Source of the DNA: Alphaproteobacteria bacterium
Lineage (GTDB): Bacteria; Pseudomonadota; Alphaproteobacteria; SP197
Assembly: GCA_009694045.1 (NCBI GenBank)
Contig: SHVY01000001.1
Span: 62,001 to 126,000, forward strand
Direction of reading: 5' to 3'
Length of the DNA: 64,000 nucleotides
Made by a program: the position numbers and the translations under genes. Under the pieces are notes generated by a model. It was not told the DNA's origin. It saw nothing but the letters and a program-made list of their open reading frames with translations, and ran no database searches. Numbering within the stretch: position 1 is the stretch's first letter; every line of letters begins with the position of its first letter. Positions 54,349 to 62,956 of this stretch are shown piece after piece.

Positions 54349-57300
54349 CTACTCCGCCGCCGGCCGCCGCGCCAATCGTCGCAGCGTCCGGTCGATCCAG
54401 CGCCGCGTCAGCTTCTCCTGCACCGAGTTCTGGCGCAGCCGCGCGGCCAGGCCGTCGAAGTCCACCCGGTCCAGGGGTTGGTCCTGGTTGAAGCAGGAGA
54501 ACACCGGGGGCAACCGTTCGCCGGTCACGGGATCGCGGTGCGGCTGCAGGCACTGGGCGCAGATCTCCTTCATCATGCACTGCATCGGCGAGTTGATGCT
54601 GCCGATCGCGTGGCGGCAGCGCGCGAGGTGACCCTTGAGGACCCCGCGCCGGGCGGCCGCGACGGCCGCCATCATCCGGTCCGAGCCGATGGCGATCAGC
54701 CGATCGGCGGCGGCGAGCGGGATCGGCGTCTCGCCCAGGCCACCCTCGGCGTAGGCCCGCATCGCCGCCACCAAATTGCCGACGATGGCCTTGTCCTGGG
54801 GGCGGTTGGGCCGGAAGCCGGGGGCCTCGTCGCAGGCCCAGACGATCGCATCGGCCGCGGCCTCGATCTCGGCCACCTTGTAGCGGTCGATCGCCCGCTT
54901 GTAGCCGGCGAAGTACAGCACCGTCCCGCCCATCTCCCGCACCCGCTGGCCGATCGCGAACAGCACCGCGTTGCCGAGTCCGCCGCCGACCAGCACCACC
55001 GTCTCGCCGGCCAAGATCTCGGTGGCCGTGCCGGTGGGTCCCATGACGATCACCGGTTCGCCCGGCTCCAGCACGCTGCACAGGTCGGACGACCCGCCCA
55101 TCTCGAGGACGATCAGGCCGAGAAGATCGCCGTCCACCCACGCGCCGGTCATGGCCAGGCCTTCCATGGCCAGGGTGGTCCCGTCCGCGCGCAGGGCGCG
55201 TGCCTCGTAGTTCTGCAGGCGGAAGAACTGGCCGGGCTTGAAGGCGCGGGCGGCGAACGGGGCGTGGACGACCACCTCGACGATGGTCGGGGTCAAACGG
55301 TTGACGGCGTGGACCCTGGCGCGCAGGCCGTCGTTCAATCGGCCGATGAAGGGGTCGTTGCCCACGCCGCTCGCGGGCGCTCGTCCCGCCAGGCGGCGCG
55401 AGATCAGGGCGCCCACCTGCTTGCCGCTGGCCATGGCCTTGACCACGTTGCCGGCGTAGGACGGATGCACGTCGCCGAGGAAACTCACCGCCCGACCGTC
55501 CGCCCGGACGTGGGCGAAGGCCCGGACCGTCGACGGCTTGGTCGATTTCTCCGGGGTCCCGTCCACCGCCCGAAGGTAGAGGCCGTCGGTGGCGAAGCGG
55601 TCCGCGTCCTCGCGGGCGATGACGGTGTTGGGCTGGGTGCCCGCGGCCACCAGGATGGAACGGGCGGGCAGGGTCACCCGATCCGCGCCGCACGCGAAGG
55701 TGATGGCGGCGGCGTGGCCGTGCTCGTCCACGGCGACCTCGACCGGGGCGAGACCGGGCGCGAAGCGGATGCCTTCCTCCAGGGCCTTGGCGACCTCCTC
55801 GTGATTCAGGCGGTAGCTCGGCGCGTCCTGCATCCGGCGACGGTAGGCCAGGGTCACGCCACCCCAGGAATCGAGCAGCGCCTTGATCCGCCGCGGCTCA
55901 CCCTTGACGGCGCGCAGCGCCCGGGCGTGGGCGAGGAACTCGTCCGCGATGGACTGTTCCTCGGCGTCGAAGTCCGCGGGCGCGCGGCCCTCGGCCGCCA
56001 GGGTCTCGAAGCGGGCCAGGAATTTTTCGACCTGAACGGGGTAGTAGGCCAGGGCCTCGGTCGCGGTGTCGACCGCCGTCAGGCCGCCGCCGACCACCAC
56101 CACCGGCAGGCGGATCTGCAGGTTGGCGACGGAATCGCGCTTGGCCGCGCCGGTGAGTTGCAGCGCCATGAGGAAGTCGGACGCCGCCCGCACGCCCCGC
56201 GCGAGGCCACCCGGCAGATCGAGGTAGGTCGGTTTGCCGGCGCCGACCGCCAGCGCCACGTGGTCGAAGCCGAGGTCGAATGCCTGGTCGACGGTCATGT
56301 TGCCGCCCAGCCGCACGCCGCCGAACATCGCGAAGTCGCCGCGGCGCTCCAGCAGCAGGCGGACGATCTTCAGGAAGTTCTTATCCCAACGGACGGTGAT
56401 GCCGTACTCGGCCACGCCGCCGAACCCGGCCATCAGCCGGTCGTCCAGGGGCTCGCGCAAGTCCTCGGCGCGGCGCACCGCCTGGAAGGGCACGCGGGCG
56501 CCGTCTGCCGCCACGCCCGAGAGAGCGGGCGCCAGCGGCTCGATCTTGAGCCCATCGACCGCGACGACCGTGTGCCCGTCGTTCAGCAGCGTGTGCGCCA
56601 GGCTGAAGCCGGCGGGCCCAAGTCCGACCACCAGCACCCGCTGGCCCGACGGCGGCAGCGGCAGGGGCCGCCGCAGGTTCAGCGGATTCCAGCGGGTCAG
56701 CAGCCCGTAGATCTCGAACCCCCAGGGCAGCGCCAGCACGTCCTTGAGCGCCCGGGTCTCGATCTGCGGAATGTCGACCGGTTCCTGCTTCTGGTAGATG
56801 CAGGCCTTCATGCAATCGTTGCAGATGCGGTGTCCCGTCGCCGCCATCAGCGGGTTGTCCACGGCGGCGATCGCCACGGCCCCAAGGGCGAACCCCTGGC
56901 TGGCCAGCAGGTTCATCTCCGAGATCTTCTCCTCGAGCGGACAGCCGGCGAGGGTGATGCCGAGCGCGTTGGCGCGGAACTCCTTGGCCTTGTCCTTGAA
57001 CCCCTTGGCGCAGGAGTCCTTCCCCTGGTTGTGGCAGAAGATGCAGTAGTGCGCCTGATCGAGCGCCGCCGCCGGGCTCATTCCTGCGTCGGTGAGGGCG
57101 AAGCCCTCGCGCCGGCGCAGGCGATCCTCGGGCAGCCGCAGCACCGTCACGCCGTCGATCACGGCCGCTTCGACCGGGACCAGGTGGTCGGGTTCGATCT
57201 TGTGCGGCAGACGGAACAGGAAGCCGCCGGCGAACCTGGCATGGCCCTGTGGCGTCGTTGCCGCCCAGGCGGCGAAGCGCTCGGCCAAGGCAAGGTCCGC

Positions 57301-57774
57301 CACGTGCGTCGGCTCGTCGGCCAGCCAGGCCATGACGGCACGGGCGAAGGACTCCTCGGTGACGGGTTCGCCCAACAAGGCGGCGACCGCGCGCTCGAGC
57401 GCCGGACCGTCGCTCGCCGAGGCACCCGCCCTGCCCTTGACCGCGCGGCGGCGCACGAACAGGCGCTTGCAATCGTACAGCGGTGCTAGCGCATCGGCCC
57501 GCGCGCGCAAATCCGCGACCGCGGCCGTCACGCCGAACAGTTCCCCGACGAAATCCTCGACGTGCGGCGCCAGCGCCAGCAGCAACTCGGATTCCGCCTT
57601 GGCCGCGAGCGACGACGGGTCCGCCCGCCCCCCCAGCAAGCCTCCCAGCAGCTCCGGCGCGGCCGCGCCAAGATGGGCGAGAAAACGCTCGTCGAGTTTT
57701 ACGAGCCCGTCGCGCTCGTACAGATCGACCGGCGTGAAGCCGTGGGCGAGGGCGAGTTCGGCGGGGTGCGGCAT
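54349..57774 (-). CDS. Large FAD/Fe-S oxidoreductase: GltD-like plus ferredoxin-NADP reductase-like fusion
   Basis: Codes for 1141 residues from ATG 57774. An alpha-helical N-terminus (about 1-230) is followed by cysteine sets CIFCHNQGKDSC (Cys244, 247, 255) and CNDCMKACIYQKQEP (Cys318, 321, 325) of the GltD/dihydropyrimidine-dehydrogenase type. Two dinucleotide motifs come next (VLVVGLGPAGFSLAHTLL near 385; LPVVVVGGGLTAVDTATEAL near 585). From about 835 there is a ferredoxin reductase/PyrK-like domain (KPGQFFRLQNYEARAL, VIVMGPTGTATEILAGE, VVLVGGGLGNAVLFAIG) ending in Cys-rich CMMKEICAQCLQPHRD. It should move electrons between NAD(P)H and Fe-S partners. It is downstream of the cys operon on the same strand, so a role as sulfite reductase donor is plausible but unproven. 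Confidence 0.78.
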   Translation of the reverse strand: MPHPAELALAHGFTPVDLYERDGLVKLDERFLAHLGAAAPELLGGLLGGRADPSSLAAKAESELLLALAPHVEDFVGELFGVTAAVADLRARADALAPLYDCKRLFVRRRAVKGRAGASASDGPALERAVAALLGEPVTEESFARAVMAWLADEPTHVADLALAERFAAWAATTPQGHARFAGGFLFRLPHKIEPDHLVPVEAAVIDGVTVLRLPEDRLRRREGFALTDAGMSPAAALDQAHYCIFCHNQGKDSCAKGFKDKAKEFRANALGITLAGCPLEEKISEMNLLASQGFALGAVAIAAVDNPLMAATGHRICNDCMKACIYQKQEPVDIPQIETRALKDVLALPWGFEIYGLLTRWNPLNLRRPLPLPPSGQRVLVVGLGPAGFSLAHTLLNDGHTVVAVDGLKIEPLAPALSGVAADGARVPFQAVRRAEDLREPLDDRLMAGFGGVAEYGITVRWDKNFLKIVRLLLERRGDFAMFGGVRLGGNMTVDQAFDLGFDHVALAVGAGKPTYLDLPGGLARGVRAASDFLMALQLTGAAKRDSVANLQIRLPVVVVGGGLTAVDTATEALAYYPVQVEKFLARFETLAAEGRAPADFDAEEQSIADEFLAHARALRAVKGEPRRIKALLDSWGGVTLAYRRRMQDAPSYRLNHEEVAKALEEGIRFAPGLAPVEVAVDEHGHAAAITFACGADRVTLPARSILVAAGTQPNTVIAREDADRFATDGLYLRAVDGTPEKSTKPSTVRAFAHVRADGRAVSFLGDVHPSYAGNVVKAMASGKQVGALISRRLAGRAPASGVGNDPFIGRLNDGLRARVHAVNRLTPTIVEVVVHAPFAARAFKPGQFFRLQNYEARALRADGTTLAMEGLAMTGAWVDGDLLGLIVLEMGGSSDLCSVLEPGEPVIVMGPTGTATEILAGETVVLVGGGLGNAVLFAIGQRVREMGGTVLYFAGYKRAIDRYKVAEIEAAADAIVWACDEAPGFRPNRPQDKAIVGNLVAAMRAYAEGGLGETPIPLAAADRLIAIGSDRMMAAVAAARRGVLKGHLARCRHAIGSINSPMQCMMKEICAQCLQPHRDPVTGERLPPVFSCFNQDQPLDRVDFDGLAARLRQNSVQEKLTRRWIDRTLRRLARRPAAE

Positions 57775-57968: not shown

Positions 57969-58020
57969 AGTGGTTCGATTCCGACGGATCGATCCTGATC
58001 CGTCTGAATCGAACCACTAG
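57969..58020. repeat. Palindromic element F; supplies the stop codon of the DUF934 gene
   Basis: Perfectly flanked by CTAG at both ends: C-TA-G...C-TA-G. The arms GTGGTTCGATTCCGACGGAT and ATCCGTCTGAATCGAACCAC pair along almost their full length. The minus-strand DUF934 gene ends at TAG 58019-58017, again made of the flanking TA plus the element's terminal G. The arm sequence matches stem 2 of the composite element at 33255. Confidence 0.7.
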
Positions 58021-58472
58021 GGTCGGGTCGCGGGTTGGTAAGTGACGGTGATCTCGGTGAAGGCGTTGAGGGCGTCTTCCAGGTTCTTGTCGGCGCGCAC
58101 CTCGAAGGCGTTGAAGCCGCAGCGGGCCATGAACGCGAGCTGGTCGCGCAGCACGTCGCCGACGGCCCGCAACTCGCCCCGGAAGCCGTGCCGTTCGCGC
58201 AACAGCCGGGCGAGGCTAAAGGCCCGGCCGTCGGTGAACTTCGGAAACGCAATGGCGACCAGGGGTAGATCGTTCAAGTCGCCTTCAAGCTGCGCAGGGT
58301 CGTCGGTCGGCTCCAGGCGCACGCCCACCCGTCGCCCCGCGAGCTCGCCCCGGCGCTCGCGCCAGACGGCAAGGGGGACGATCACGTCGCCCGCGTCGGG
58401 AATTGCCTCGGCCGTGCCGTGGCTCCAATCGTCGGCGACGATGGCTCCCCCCTTGATGATCCGGCGGCTCAT
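58017..58472 (-). CDS. DUF934 family protein of the sulfate-assimilation operon
   Basis: Codes for 151 residues from ATG 58472, overlapping the cysI stop (ATGA). The DUF934 pattern is present: GDVIVPLAVWRERRGEL, GVRLEPTDDPAQLEGDLNDL, VAIAFPKFTDGRAFSLARLL and GDVLRDQLAFMARCGFNAFE. The family nearly always sits with cysI and cysH and is presumed to assist sulfite reduction, with no defined biochemistry. The stop codon is built into palindromic element F. Confidence 0.87.
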   Translation of the reverse strand: MSRRIIKGGAIVADDWSHGTAEAIPDAGDVIVPLAVWRERRGELAGRRVGVRLEPTDDPAQLEGDLNDLPLVAIAFPKFTDGRAFSLARLLRERHGFRGELRAVGDVLRDQLAFMARCGFNAFEVRADKNLEDALNAFTEITVTYQPATRP

Positions 58473-60139
58473 GCGGCTTCGGCCTCGCGCGCGCCATAGA
58501 CGGCGGCCTTGAACGGCTCCAGGCCCAGCCGGCGGACGGCGTCGAGGAAGCGTTCGCCCGCGCGCCGCTCCGCCAGGTAGAGCGCGACGATGGTGCGGAT
58601 CGCCTGGACTGTCTCGGCGGCCGGCAGGCTGGGGCCGAGGATGCGTCCCAGGCTCGCGTCCTCGCCGCTCGATCCGCCGAGGGTGAGCTGGAAGAACTCG
58701 CGCCCGTGCTTGTCGACGCCGAGAATGCCGATGTGGCCGGCATGGTGGTGGCCACAGGAATTGATGCAGCCGGAGATGTTCAGCCGCAGGTCGCCGAGGT
58801 CGTGCAGCCGCTCCAGGTCGGCGAAGGACCGCGAGATGTCCTGGGCGATGGGGATCGACCGCGCCGTCGCCAGCGCGCAGTAGTCCATGCCGGGGCAGGC
58901 GATGATGTCGGTGATGGTGCCGACATTCGCCGTGGCGAGGCCATGGCGGCCGAGCACCCGCCACAGGGCGTACAGGTCCTGGGCGCGCACGTCGGCCAGC
59001 ACCAGGTTCTGGGTGTGACTGACGCGAATCTGGCCGAAGCTGAACAGGTCGGCCAGATCGGCCACCTGCTCCATCTGCTCTGCCGTGGCATCGCCGGGTA
59101 CTTCGCCCGGTGCCTTCAGCGAGATGACGACGGCGCGGTAGCCGGGGCGCTTGTGCGGCTCCACGTTGCGCGCGAGCCAGCGGGCGAACGCCGGGTCCGC
59201 GGCGCGCCAGGAAGCGAGGAGGGGAGGGTCGCCGGCCAACGTCTCGTACGGCGGATCGGCGAAGGCCGCCGCCATGCGGGCGATGGCGGCGGCGTCGACG
59301 GCCAGGGGGCGGCGGTCCATCGCCAGCCACTCTTCCTCGACCTCCGCGCGGAACCGTTCGACGCCCAGCGCCGCGACCAGGATCTTGATCCGCGCCTTGT
59401 AGATGTTGTCGCGCCGGCCCCAGCGGTTGTAGATGCGCAAGATCGCCTCGACGTAGGACAGCAGATCGTGCGACTCCAGGAACGGCCGGATGATCGCGCC
59501 GATGTAGGGCGTGCGTCCCATGCCGCCGCCGACCAGCACCTCGAACCCGACCGCGTCGCCATCGCCGCGCACCAGGCGCAGGCCGATGTCGTGCACCCGG
59601 GTGGCGGCCCGGTCGGTCGTGGCACCGGTCACGGCGATCTTGAACTTGCGCGGCAGGTACGAGAATTCCGGATGCAGGGTCGACCACTGGCGCAGGAATT
59701 CGCACCACGGGCGCGGGTCGGCGATCTCGTTGGCCGCGACCCCCGCCAGATGGTCGGTCGTCACGTTGCGGACGCAGTTGCCGCTGGTCTGGATGGCGTG
59801 CATCTCGACCGTGGCGAGATCGGACAGGATGTCCGGCGCGTCGGGCAGCTTGATCCAGTTGAACTGGATGTTCTGCCGGGTGGTGAAGTGGCCGTAGCCC
59901 TTGTCGTAGGTGCGGGCGACGTGGGCGAGGGTGCGAAGCTGCCGCGACGCGAGGATGCCATAGGGGATGGCGACCCGCAGCATGTAGGCGTGGAGCTGGA
60001 GGTAGAGCCCGTTCTGCAGGCGCAGGGGCTTGAACTCGTCCTCGGAGAGTTCGCCCGCCAGGCGCCGGCGAACCTGGTCGCGGAACTGAGCGACGCGCTC
60101 GGCGACGAAGGTCTGGTCGGCCTGGTTGTACGCATACAT
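58469..60139 (-). CDS. cysI: Assimilatory sulfite (or nitrite) reductase hemoprotein
   Basis: Codes for 556 residues from ATG 60139. Two ferredoxin-like half-domains and two 4Fe-4S/siroheme regions are visible: GHFTTRQNIQFNWIKLPD, TSGNCVRNVTTDHLAG, and FKIAVTGATTDRAATRVHDI. The siroheme/4Fe-4S ligand cysteines are CPGMDYC (415, 421) and GCINSC (458, 462). It reduces sulfite to sulfide with six electrons. Context with cysH, DUF2849 and DUF934 makes sulfite the likely substrate. No cysJ flavoprotein is in the operon; the large oxidoreductase downstream is one candidate donor. Confidence 0.92.
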   Translation of the reverse strand: MYAYNQADQTFVAERVAQFRDQVRRRLAGELSEDEFKPLRLQNGLYLQLHAYMLRVAIPYGILASRQLRTLAHVARTYDKGYGHFTTRQNIQFNWIKLPDAPDILSDLATVEMHAIQTSGNCVRNVTTDHLAGVAANEIADPRPWCEFLRQWSTLHPEFSYLPRKFKIAVTGATTDRAATRVHDIGLRLVRGDGDAVGFEVLVGGGMGRTPYIGAIIRPFLESHDLLSYVEAILRIYNRWGRRDNIYKARIKILVAALGVERFRAEVEEEWLAMDRRPLAVDAAAIARMAAAFADPPYETLAGDPPLLASWRAADPAFARWLARNVEPHKRPGYRAVVISLKAPGEVPGDATAEQMEQVADLADLFSFGQIRVSHTQNLVLADVRAQDLYALWRVLGRHGLATANVGTITDIIACPGMDYCALATARSIPIAQDISRSFADLERLHDLGDLRLNISGCINSCGHHHAGHIGILGVDKHGREFFQLTLGGSSGEDASLGRILGPSLPAAETVQAIRTIVALYLAERRAGERFLDAVRRLGLEPFKAAVYGAREAEAA

Positions 60140-60148
60140 GGTCGATCC

Positions 60149-60451
60149 CTATGGCGCTCGGCGGAGCGAATTGCCCGTGGTCGGGCCGGAGGCGCGAACC
60201 CGCTCGCGCACCGAATCGTGGTCCGGCTCGCCCTCGCCGGAAGCAACGGCGATGACGTAGGGCGCCACCACGTTGTTGGCGCGCGCCTCGGCCTCGGCGA
60301 GCGCCAACCAGGCGTCGCGGGTCGCCGGGTCGGCGGTCGTGCTGGCGCGCCGGATATCCCGCTCCCACGACGGCAACGGCTCGGCGCGCAGGTAACGCAC
60401 GCTCCCGTCGCGCAGGTCGTTGGCGGTGACGATGCTGTGCGTGGCGCTCAT
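60149..60451 (-). CDS. DUF2849 family protein
   Basis: Codes for 100 residues from ATG 60451, with three bases between it and the cysH stop. The DUF2849 pattern is clear: HSIVTANDLRDGSVRYL, ATRDAWLALAEAEARANNVV and APYVIAVASGEGEPD. The family is confined mainly to alphaproteobacterial cys clusters between siroheme/CysH and CysI genes and has no assigned function. Confidence 0.87.
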   Translation of the reverse strand: MSATHSIVTANDLRDGSVRYLRAEPLPSWERDIRRASTTADPATRDAWLALAEAEARANNVVAPYVIAVASGEGEPDHDSVRERVRASGPTTGNSLRRAP

Positions 60452-60454
60452 AAT

Positions 60455-61207
60455 CTAGAACAGGGCCGGACGGTGGATGCCGCACTCGGTCTTCTCGCGC
60501 CCCGCCCAGCGGCCGTAACGGACATCGAGGCCCGATGTCGCCGGCTTCGTGCAGGGGGCGCAGCCGATCGAGGCGTAGCCGTCGTGCAGCAATGGATGAT
60601 CGGGCAGGCCGCGCTCGGTGAAGACGGCGTCGATCTGGTCCCGGCTCCAGGTGGCGAGGGGGCTCGCCACCACGTGGTCGCCCACCGCTTCGAGCGTCGC
60701 GACCGCGCCGCGCTCGCCCCCGTGCAGGCGCTTGCGGCCCGACACCCAGGCTTCGAACGGCGCGAGGGCGCGGGTAAGGGGCGCTACCTTGCGCACCGCG
60801 CAGCAGGCGTCGGGATCGCGCCGGTGGAGCAGCCCGTCGGGGTCCGGTTTGCCGAGCTCGCGGGGGTCGGGCCGCACGATGCGAAGGTCGGTGAGCCCCA
60901 ACCGCTCGGCCAGGCGTTCGCGATAGGCGATCGTCTCGCGAAACAGCTTACCGGTGTCGAGGAAGATGACCGGGGTCGTGGGTTCGATCTCGGCGACCAG
61001 GGCGAGGAGTGCCGCCGACTCGGTCCCGAACGACGAGGCCACGGCGATGCGCCCGGGAAACTCGACCGCGATCATCGCCTGCAACAGCTCCGGGCCATCC
61101 ACGCCCTGATAGGAACGGGCGAGGGCCGCGGCCCTAAGCGCCGCCCGCCGCGCCGGGGGGAGCCGGCCGGCGAATGCGAAACCCGGGACGGGGGACGCGC
61201 CGTCCAT
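60455..61207 (-). CDS. cysH: Adenylylsulfate (APS) reductase, CysH family with Fe-S cysteines
   Basis: Codes for 250 residues from ATG 61207, directly after the preceding stop. The PAPS-reductase fold shows the pyrophosphate loop VASSFGTESAALLALVAEI and TPVIFLDTGKLFRETIAYRE. The 4Fe-4S cysteines typical of APS (rather than PAPS) reductases are present: Cys135-Cys136 (DACCAVRK) and Cys216/Cys219 (IGCAPCT). The catalytic Cys242 lies in KTECGIH. It reduces APS to sulfite using thioredoxin. It is the second gene of the riboswitch-preceded operon. Confidence 0.93.
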   Translation of the reverse strand: MDGASPVPGFAFAGRLPPARRAALRAAALARSYQGVDGPELLQAMIAVEFPGRIAVASSFGTESAALLALVAEIEPTTPVIFLDTGKLFRETIAYRERLAERLGLTDLRIVRPDPRELGKPDPDGLLHRRDPDACCAVRKVAPLTRALAPFEAWVSGRKRLHGGERGAVATLEAVGDHVVASPLATWSRDQIDAVFTERGLPDHPLLHDGYASIGCAPCTKPATSGLDVRYGRWAGREKTECGIHRPALF

Positions 61208-61552
61208 CTAGCGGTCCCCGGCCACCGGCAGTCCGGCGTTGTGCACGGCGTCGACGACCACGGGAACCAGCTCGGGATCGACGCCCCGCACCTCGCAGGT
61301 GGCGGGGTCGACCGCCACGAGTCCGGCGAAGGCATGGCGGCTGGCGATGGCGCTGAGCGCGTCCCGCTGCGGCGAGCTCAGGCGCCCCAGCGGCGGGCGC
61401 ACGATGACCGCGAACCGGCCGTCGGCGGCCAGATGCACGGCATCGCCGAAGGCGGGCGACTTGCCGAAGGCGGACGGCGTGGCGAAGGTGCGGAACTGGA
61501 ATGGCTTGAGCGGCGAGCATGGCCGTGACCCCAACAACAGTGACGGGCCCAC
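61208..61552 (-). CDS. Small stand-alone nitrite/sulfite reductase ferredoxin-like half-domain protein
   Basis: Codes for 114 residues from GTG 61552, with GGAG eight bases upstream, both inside a hairpin at the end of riboswitch 2. The C-terminal 80 residues match the ferredoxin-like half-domain of siroheme reductases/CobG: ADGRFAVIVRPPLGRLSSPQ, RDALSAIASRHAFAGLVAVD, and EVRGVDPELVPVVVDAVHNA. No Fe-S or siroheme ligand is present. Its stop abuts the cysH ATG. It may assist sulfite reductase assembly or be a relic of a longer protein. An ATG at 61681, right after aptamer 1, is in frame and would add 43 residues read through aptamer 2; I consider that less likely. Confidence 0.6.
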   Translation of the reverse strand: MGPSLLLGSRPCSPLKPFQFRTFATPSAFGKSPAFGDAVHLAADGRFAVIVRPPLGRLSSPQRDALSAIASRHAFAGLVAVDPATCEVRGVDPELVPVVVDAVHNAGLPVAGDR

Positions 61553-61568
61553 GGAGCTCGCTCCGTGG
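61549..61568 (-). promoter_or_regulatory. Hairpin enclosing the ribosome site and GTG start (riboswitch expression platform)
   Basis: CCACGGAGCGAGCTCCGTGG on the minus strand is a perfect palindrome. The left arm holds the GGAG ribosome site and the right arm holds the GTG start of the half-domain gene. It directly follows GCTAAAGCG of aptamer 2, so folding of the aptamer could decide whether this hairpin hides the start. No T-run follows, so translation control fits better than termination. Confidence 0.55.
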
Positions 61569-61622
61569 CGCTTTAGCGGTTGTGGTCGCGGCCGCAAGCT
61601 GCCCTTCAAATCCCGCGAGTCC
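61563..61622 (-). ncRNA. SAM-II-type riboswitch aptamer, copy 2 (proximal)
   Basis: On the minus strand the order is CTCGCGG - GATTTGAAGGGCAGCTTGCGG - CCGCG - ACCACAACCGCTAAAGCG. P1 pairs CGCGG with CCGCG. The loop starts with GATTTG and the 3' part carries GCTAAA, both core features of SAM-II. It aligns with copy 1 over the stretches CGATTTGA/GGATTTGAA, AGCTTGCGG and CGCTAAAGCG. It differs by lacking the AAATG before the GCTAAA block, so ligand binding is less certain than for copy 1. Confidence 0.65.
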
Positions 61623-61681
61623 GTATGCGGTGGACCAGCCCGTAAAACACAAAATCCGCTGCGGCTAGCCGGGCGGATCAT

Positions 61682-61741
61682 CCCGTCGCTTTAGCCGCAT
61701 TTGTAACGCGCCCGCAAGCTATACATCAAATCGGCGCGGAC
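61682..61741 (-). ncRNA. SAM-II-type riboswitch aptamer, copy 1 (distal)
   Basis: On the minus strand: CCGCGC - CGATTTGATGTATAGCTTG - CGGGCGCG - TTACAAATGCGGCTAAAGCG. P1 pairs CGCGC with GCGCG. The loop GATTT, the spacer with AAATG and the closing GCTAAA follow the SAM-II class, found upstream of methionine/sulfur genes in alphaproteobacteria. It starts within about ten bases of the promoter -10 element, so it lies at the 5' end of the cys transcript. S-adenosylmethionine binding would shut off sulfate reduction when SAM is high. Confidence 0.8.
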
Positions 61742-61744
61742 GAA

Positions 61745-61773
61745 TGTATACGGACATGCGCGGGCACCGTCAA
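61745..61773 (-). promoter_or_regulatory. Sigma70-type promoter of the cys operon
   Basis: On the minus strand TTGACG (61773-61768) is followed after 17 bases by TATACA (61750-61745). Transcription would begin at about 61738-61740, at the first base pairs of aptamer 1. The divergent rlmN gene starts at 61826, leaving about 50 bases between. Confidence 0.65.
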
Positions 61774-61825: not shown

Positions 61826-62956
61826 ATGGACGAACGCCGCGATCTGATCGGGCTTTCCCGCGCCGAGCTGGTGGCCGAGATGGCGGCCATGGACGAGCCG
61901 CCGTTCCGCGCCAAGCAGCTATGGCACTGGATCTATCACCGTGGCGCCCGCGACTTCGCGGGAATGACCTCAATCGGCAAGGCGACGCGCACCCGCTTCG
62001 CCGAACGGTTCACGCTCGACCGCCCGGCGATCCGGGTGGAGCAACGCTCGGCCGACGGCACCCGCAAGTGGCTGCTGGCCCTGGCCGACGGCCGCGAGGT
62101 CGAGAGCGTGCACATTCCCGAGGACGATCGCGGCGCGTTGTGCGTGTCGTCCCAGGTCGGTTGCACGCTCACCTGCAAGTTCTGCCACACCGGGACCCAG
62201 ACGCTGGTGCGCAACCTGACCGCCGGCGAGATCGTCGGCCAGGTGCTGATCGCCCGCGATTCCCTCGAGGAATGGCCGGTCCCTAGGGGCGGCCGGCTGC
62301 TTTCGAACATCGTCATGATGGGCATGGGCGAGCCGCTCTACAACTACGAGAACGTGGCAGCGGCGCTCCGCATCGTCATGGACAACGAAGGCATCGCCAT
62401 CTCGCGCCGGCGCATCACCCTGTCGACCGCGGGCGTCGTGCCGATGATCCGCCGGGCGGGGGAGGAGCTCGGTGTCGGACTCGCGGTATCCCTGCATGCG
62501 GTCACCGACGAACTGCGCGACCGCATCGTCCCCCTCAACAAGAAGTACCCGATCGCCGACTTGCTCCAGGCCTGCCGCGACTATCCCGGCTCGTCGAACG
62601 CACGGCGCATCACCTTCGAGTACGTGATGCTGCGGGGCGTCAACGATACGCCCGGGGATGCGAAGGCCCTGGTCAAGCTGATCGCCGGCATCCCGGCGAA
62701 GGTCAACCTGATCCCGTTCAACCCCTGGCCCGGCGCCCCGTTCGAATGCGCGACCGATGCCGCCATCGCCCGCTTCGCCGCGATCGTCAGGGGCGCCGGC
62801 TACGCCTCGCCGGTACGCACGCCCCGGGGCCGCGACATCCTCGCCGCCTGCGGCCAGCTCAAGAGCGCGAGCGAACGGGCGCGCCGCGGCGCCCGTGGTC
62901 CGACCCCGACGCACGAGCCCGCGTCATCATCGGGTTTGGGGCGGACCACGGCATGA
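61826..62956 (+). CDS. rlmN: 23S rRNA/tRNA (adenine-C2) methyltransferase RlmN
   Basis: Codes for 376 residues from ATG 61826 (the GGGGGGAGGGGCG upstream is the ribosome site). Radical-SAM cysteines lie in CTLTCKFC (Cys113, 117, 120); the resolving/methyl-carrying Cys is at about 342 in [12 protein letters not shown]. Family segments: [55 protein letters not shown] and [16 protein letters not shown]. It methylates A2503 of 23S rRNA and A37 of some tRNAs. The last 20 residues or so are encoded by the palindromic element that overlaps the 3' end, so the original C-terminus was probably different. Confidence 0.93.

Follow-up and report, generated by a model that had tools for sequence, protein, structure and literature searches.

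Genomic context of the tandem leader

The window analyzed here is a 64,000-nt stretch of DNA from Alphaproteobacteria bacterium (SP197), corresponding to positions 62,001–126,000 of contig SHVY01000001.1 in assembly GCA_009694045.1. On its minus strand, a leader with two copies of a riboswitch-like motif, copy 1 at 61747–61671 and then copy 2 at 61626–61545, precedes a group of sulfate-to-sulfide genes in the order NIR_SIR_ferr-cysH-DUF2849-cysI-DUF934. The divergent neighbor of the leader is rlmN. The first gene of the operon is a small ORF with a NIR_SIR_ferr half-domain (61208–61534; PF03460, 1.7e-6), followed by cysH for (P)APS reductase (60455–61207; PF01507, 5.6e-34; PRK02090, 3.5e-70), a gene for a DUF2849 protein (60149–60451; PF11011, 9.3e-19), a cysI-like nitrite/sulfite reductase gene (58469–60139; PF01077, 4.1e-69, and PF03460), and a gene for a DUF934 protein (58017–58487; PF06073, 1.3e-40), all on the minus strand. 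The initial annotation had read this as an APS-reductase/sulfite-reductase operon, which the Pfam and NCBIfam matches bear out, except that its first gene is the half-domain ORF and not cysH. The CC and CAPC motifs in the predicted cysH product suggest an APS reductase of the 4Fe-4S type. After the DUF934 gene, a minus-strand ORF of 1,141 aa (54349–57774) resembles FAD/NAD oxidoreductases (PRK06567-like, below cutoff) and possibly encodes the electron donor of CysI.

The start of the half-domain ORF is uncertain. It lacks a good in-frame start: the conserved domain is in a different frame from the ATG at 61520, which has a Shine-Dalgarno-like GGGG before it. In a relative (L053/L004), an ATG that is in frame occupies the corresponding place. 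Either a near-cognate start (TTG at 61537/61534) is used or the sequence contains a small indel.

The two minus-strand segments first pointed out, 61741–61682 and 61622–61563, have the positions and the order of elements that were ascribed to them. Comparison with related genomes, which the initial annotation had proposed, reveals that family members share the two-copy leader, with identities over about 200 nt of 85% in one genome (G003) and 75% to 77% in five others (G013, G015, G012, G001, and G006). Just upstream of copy 1, a promoter-like TTGACG-17-TATACA (61745–61773, minus strand) can be read from the sequence, and we regard it as weak because a consensus promoter scan did not report it. 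Elsewhere in this genome, metY and metZ are each preceded by a single canonical SAM-II copy with a terminator. The tandem is therefore one of three SAM-II leaders that were observed, and it is the one that belongs to sulfate reduction.

Copy 1 is a canonical SAM-II aptamer with a terminator

Copy 1 (61671–61747, minus strand) matches the SAM-II family RF00521 (SAM_alpha) with 36.9 bits against a gathering threshold of 36 (E = 1.1e-4 over the full 64 kb), and it is the sole gathering-level match in the window among all Rfam families, in keeping with the close fit to the SAM-II pattern noted earlier. Both the sequence and the cmscan alignment give the P1 helix (61738–61733/61712–61707) and the GAUUUG (61732–61727), GCUUGC (61719–61714), and GCUAAA (61695–61690) segments, so that the P1 helix and the GAUUUG, CUUGC, GCUAAA core of SAM-II are all present. 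A DNA profile built from 27 copy-2 sequences outside the window's family also recovers copy 1, at 8.8e-6, and finds copy 2 with 66.2 bits (E = 1.2e-19 over the whole window); chance is therefore excluded for both copies.

Between the two copies lies an intrinsic terminator, AUCCGC/GCGGAU followed by UUUUGUGUUUU (61644–61678, minus strand). A strict terminator scan did not call it, and its U-run is interrupted; relatives have a terminator at the same position with longer U-runs. A competing helix is available: the strand UGCGGCUA (61692–61699) within the core of copy 1 is complementary to UAGCCGCA (61660–61667). The leader's MFE fold contains this antiterminator pairing, and among relatives the two strands co-vary (39 loci, −8.94 versus −7.41 ± 0.28 kcal/mol for shuffled partners, with the proviso, which holds for all shuffle tests here, that relatedness among the sequences inflates the difference). 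Simple MFE folds of the leader are no better than shuffles overall (z of 0.26 and −1.08), as expected because of the pseudoknots.

In the absence of SAM, UGCGGCUA would pair with UAGCCGCA and block the terminator, while SAM would hold the core of copy 1 in the pseudoknot, allowing the terminator to form and transcription to stop. Copy 1 is thus very likely a SAM-OFF terminator switch, with a structure read from the sequence and a sign inferred from what is known of SAM-II.

Copy 2 is a SAM-II-like variant with an inserted hairpin

Copy 2 (61545–61626, minus strand) scores only 21.7 bits with RF00521 (match at 61626–61553; E = 0.016 in a 701-base search), below the gathering threshold of 36, and the copies 2 of relatives likewise score 27 to 30 bits. 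Because of this score, we file it as a SAM-II-like variant and not as a member of RF00521, and of the two SAM-II-type aptamers initially proposed, one is canonical and the other belongs to a distinct subtype. A covariance model of the variant, R1, gives 91.4 bits for the window's copy 2, which was among its training sequences, and 31.7 bits for copy 1; the two copies are therefore of different subtypes. Other Rfam families do not account for copy 2: the SAM-II long loop model (RF01726) reaches 14.5 bits against a gathering threshold of 44, the search of the leader yielded nothing for SAM-V even at E values as high as 10, and RcsR1, Bp2_287, and other weak matches on the leader are far under their cutoffs and were taken as chance.

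The P1 of copy 2 has 5 pairs (61617–61613/61591–61587), and the core is formed by GAUUUG (61612–61607), AGCUUGC (61600–61594), and GCUAAA (61577–61572). AUUUG, CUUGC, and GCUAAA are invariant in 45 copy-2 sequences, where the first two are partly fixed by the search pattern, and they are nearly invariant in pattern-free matches too. The nucleotides that form the SAM pocket of SAM-II and SAM-V, mapped from PMC6061858 as the U of AUUU, the UU of CUUGC, and the UAAA of GCUAAA, are all kept. There are two aptamer cores in the leader, and with its pocket unchanged copy 2 quite probably binds SAM, the ligand expected for copy 1. Directly 5′ of P1, a further hairpin, P0 (GGUCC/GGACU, 61618–61636), has a stem of at least 5 pairs in 83% of 119 variant loci versus 31% of shuffles.

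The main departure from SAM-II follows directly after GCUAAAGCG, where a hairpin that we call P3, CCACGGAG-CGAG-CUCCGUGG (61549–61568, minus strand), is inserted. The initial annotation had named an absence of compensatory changes in homologous leaders as grounds for rejecting its reading; such changes occur in every P3 pair, with two-sided changes in 7 of 7 pairs across 97 distinct sequences. Taken together, P1 and P3 are 97.3% paired with a two-sided change in 11 of 12 pairs (0 of 500 shuffles), in an alignment that was fitted to the model structure and for which sliding controls reached only 31% to 47%. A MAFFT alignment of pattern-selected loci points in the same direction.

Copy 2 lacks the contiguous local P2a strand of SAM-II, and only CAGC/GCG is local. 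Instead, the loop GGGC (61604–61601) pairs with GCCC (P5, 61545–61548) past P3, so that the distal pseudoknot strand, which is local in known SAM-II, lies beyond the inserted hairpin. In the pattern-selected loci the loop GGGC is fixed by the search pattern, and this pairing was therefore examined on pattern-free model matches. P5 is more stable with its own than with shuffled partners (−6.4 versus −5.1 ± 0.12 kcal/mol), including where the loop does not end in GGGC (−3.5 versus −1.9 ± 0.28 kcal/mol, 0 of 500), and in these matches changes in the loop are accompanied by corresponding changes in the strand beyond P3, as GAGC/GCUC, GGAGC/GCUCC, CGGAA/UUCCG, GGGA/UUCCC, and AAGGGGC/GUCCCUU.

On this sequence evidence, copy 2 represents a structurally distinct, widespread, and probably undescribed SAM-II-like subtype. 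Five sequences found by R1 (L196, L198, L200, L203, and L208) are intermediate, with a local CCGGC/GCCGG P2a, and may connect canonical SAM-II to the hairpin-inserted subtype.

Probable expression platform of copy 2

A Shine-Dalgarno-like GGGG with the spacer UCACGG (61523–61532, minus strand; start codon uncertain) follows copy 2. The 3′ side of P3 contains an anti-Shine-Dalgarno strand, CCGUG (61550–61554), which is able to pair with CACGG at 61527–61523, adjoining GGGG at 61532–61529. Across 80 loci, the 3′ side of P3 plus its apical loop pairs with the Shine-Dalgarno and spacer region better than shuffled partners do (−8.76 versus −6.92 ± 0.20 kcal/mol), and the helix extends up to 10 pairs in Ferruginivarius (L081), compared with a short one of 5 in the window. 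P1 and P3, the loop pairing past P3, and the anti-Shine-Dalgarno pairing thus each do better than shuffled controls.

With P3 formed, the ribosome site would be open; with P3 opened, its 3′ side would mask the site. The P2a strand GCGCC shares nucleotides with the base of P3, so that SAM binding to copy 2 would most likely favor masking; the site GGGGUCACGG together with the 3′ side of P3 is where such SAM-OFF masking would take place. With a terminator between the copies and an anti-Shine-Dalgarno strand in copy 2, the most likely division is that copy 1 controls transcription and copy 2 translation, the latter probable in its own right. The leader has the terminator-first, ribosome-binding-site-second order of a bi-mechanism tandem riboswitch, as judged from sequence and covariation, and the division into transcriptional and translational control that had been floated for the tandem finds support in these elements.

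The sign of copy 2 is not fixed by folding. Predicted openness of the Shine-Dalgarno is 0.27 for the free leader, 0.25 with P3 shortened, and 0.40 with P3 intact, and the covarying P5 is compatible with P3 as well. We prefer SAM-OFF, and with good confidence, since those targets identified as sulfur-related serve synthesis or uptake.

Distribution and targets of the variant

When 84,980 species genomes were scanned with a copy-2 motif, 84 stretches emerged, nearly all from alphaproteobacteria of the Rhodospirillales/Kiloniellales type, including Nisaea, Hwanghaeella, Ferruginivarius, Thalassobaculum, Dongia, and Ferrovibrio. R1 detected the subtype in 79 of the 385 alphaproteobacterial genomes sampled and in 55 of the 277 genera; canonical or intermediate forms account for a few of the weakest matches. 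Within the order, 15 of 16 genomes have it.

The genes downstream of the variant are almost throughout those of methionine and sulfur metabolism. Among 139 distinct loci, 67 have metY, OsmC-metY, metA, or metN downstream, and 28 have cysG, cysH, cysI, cobA-type, DUF2849, or NIR_SIR_ferr genes, so the position before cysG/cysH/cysI-type genes is not peculiar to the window's genome. The reference set left 44 loci unclassed; inspection of these revealed metF, metX, metQ (NlpA), homocysteine methyltransferases, and sulfate/solute-binding proteins, which adds to a list of neighbors that also holds metNIQ and metE/metH-type genes, and a few genes with no obvious part in sulfur metabolism, among them a hemB-like ORF. 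This ORF, resembling delta-aminolevulinate dehydratase, lies downstream of a lone copy 2 in L013 and L018 and would be an unexpected target unless the conserved element described below or a small gene intervenes. At two other loci (L045 and L056), two separate variant copies about 1.1 to 1.2 kb apart stand before cysH and before cysG in one gene cluster.

The variant occurs alone or behind a canonical SAM-II and terminator. A canonical copy was recognized upstream in 47 of 139 distinct loci, always first and with a terminator region; 47 is a minimum, since copies that have diverged, or that lie in short upstream stretches, escape recognition. An earlier impression that copy 2 is often solitary was partly an artifact of a strict regular expression, as many such loci have a divergent copy 1 and terminator further upstream; true solitary loci remain (e.g., L023, L028, L051, L056, and L081). 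Eight loci (L005, L006, L007, L009, L013, L014, L017, and L018) share a conserved element, CCCGGCAGNGGC...GGCGGCGGAG..GCCCTGNCGGG, about 60 to 200 nt downstream of copy 2 and before the next gene. It has no Rfam match at E ≤ 0.05 and could represent either a small ORF in the leader or an additional RNA element.

A two-stage model and its alternatives

We propose, from the sequence and its covariation, that the tandem is likely a two-stage SAM-responsive leader of the sulfate-assimilation operon, with a transcription stop at copy 1 and translational control at copy 2. Transcripts that pass the terminator would carry the variant aptamer, with P3 inserted in the 3′ strand of its pseudoknot, and when SAM is plentiful the cell would lower sulfate reduction. 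The helices are supported by covariation, SAM binding and the sign of the second stage by inference.

An unlikely alternative is that copy 2 turns translation on with SAM, or senses a different ligand, and gives a band-pass response together with copy 1. The position of the distal pseudoknot strand past P3 would let the bound pseudoknot coexist with P3 and an open site, and the predicted openness is indeed higher with P3 intact; SAM-ON control, however, makes little sense for the uptake and synthesis genes that are its identified sulfur-related targets, and the unchanged pocket nucleotides also speak against this alternative. A related reading, in which copy 2 is an undescribed SAM-II-like subclass with a switching hairpin in the pseudoknot strand and a differing sign or ligand, making the tandem a band-pass detector and not a double brake, strikes us as equally doubtful.

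The core sequence is identical in both copies, as it would be in a pseudo-cooperative doublet of two transcription attenuators whose response is merely steeper, a type that exists for SAM-II according to PMC9481103. We consider this improbable, since neither the window nor the relatives read have a U-run after P3 and an anti-Shine-Dalgarno relation is conserved after copy 2. That copy 2 is the decayed, functionless remnant of a riboswitch, leaving regulation to copy 1, would fit its score below the Rfam cutoff, but the strong conservation across families, the occurrence without copy 1 elsewhere, and the compensatory changes throughout P3 make it very improbable. The chance that copy 2 is a SAM-V member is slight indeed: second position, a translational platform, and a preceding terminator recall SAM-II/SAM-V tandems (PMC9481103), but the Rfam search of the leader, taken to E = 10, had no SAM-V match. 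The two-stage SAM-OFF leader remains our preferred reading.

Relation to known riboswitches and significance

SAM-I (S-box) controls cysH in B. subtilis. This Gram-positive system likewise brings sulfur assimilation under SAM feedback, in a different phylum and with an unrelated RNA fold. A title by Grundy and Henkin cited in PMC2258182 concerns S-box feedback on methionine and cysteine biosynthesis genes.

The definition of SAM-II itself (RF00521; the metA element of Corbino 2005) rests on methionine genes (PMC1273637). A comparative study with Rfam models found SAM_alpha only in Rhizobiales and Rhodobacterales and assigned it a regulon of methionine genes only, metY, hom, metA, metX, metC, and metW (PMC4239095). 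Copy 1 resembles SAM-II in full. Copy 2 shares P1, GAUUUG, CUUGC, GCUAAA, and the pseudoknot logic, but differs in its 5-pair P1, an L3 about 2 nt shorter, P3 placed before the distal pseudoknot strand, its score below the cutoff, and targets that include cysG/cysH/cysI.

Tandems have precedents. In Pelagibacter and marine metagenomes, a terminator-type SAM-II comes first and a translational pseudoknot second (PMC2704228, PMC6061858), as here; in the window, however, the second aptamer is not SAM-V by Rfam, and the Shine-Dalgarno is located outside P2a and has the 3′ side of P3 as its pairing partner. SAM-II doublets have also been reported, with 44 examples, some with a terminator and then a ribosome-binding-site platform (PMC9481103), and they are alike in order and division of labor. 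The initial annotation had taken two SAM-II-like copies before cysH/cysI to be undescribed; given these mixed-platform doublets, the leader is a real SAM riboswitch leader of a known general kind, and the part of the proposal that holds is its apparently new target, sulfate reduction. The text of PMC9481103 gives no target genes or second-copy structure, whereas the window's second copy is a defined subtype. In the partial set of literature searched, we found neither a paper linking SAM-II with siroheme, cysI, or sulfite reductase nor the hairpin-inserted subtype, and the novelty of target and subtype is provisional for that reason.

The subtype, which the Rfam cutoff misses, occurs in about a fifth of the 385 sampled alphaproteobacterial genomes, and it illustrates how a compact pseudoknot aptamer can take in a switching hairpin. 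Through it, SAM feedback would reach sulfate reduction (cysG, cysH, and cysI), methionine transport, and probably sulfate transport. With tandem SAM sensors placed before their sulfate-to-sulfide genes, these bacteria probably throttle the entry of sulfur according to the level of SAM.
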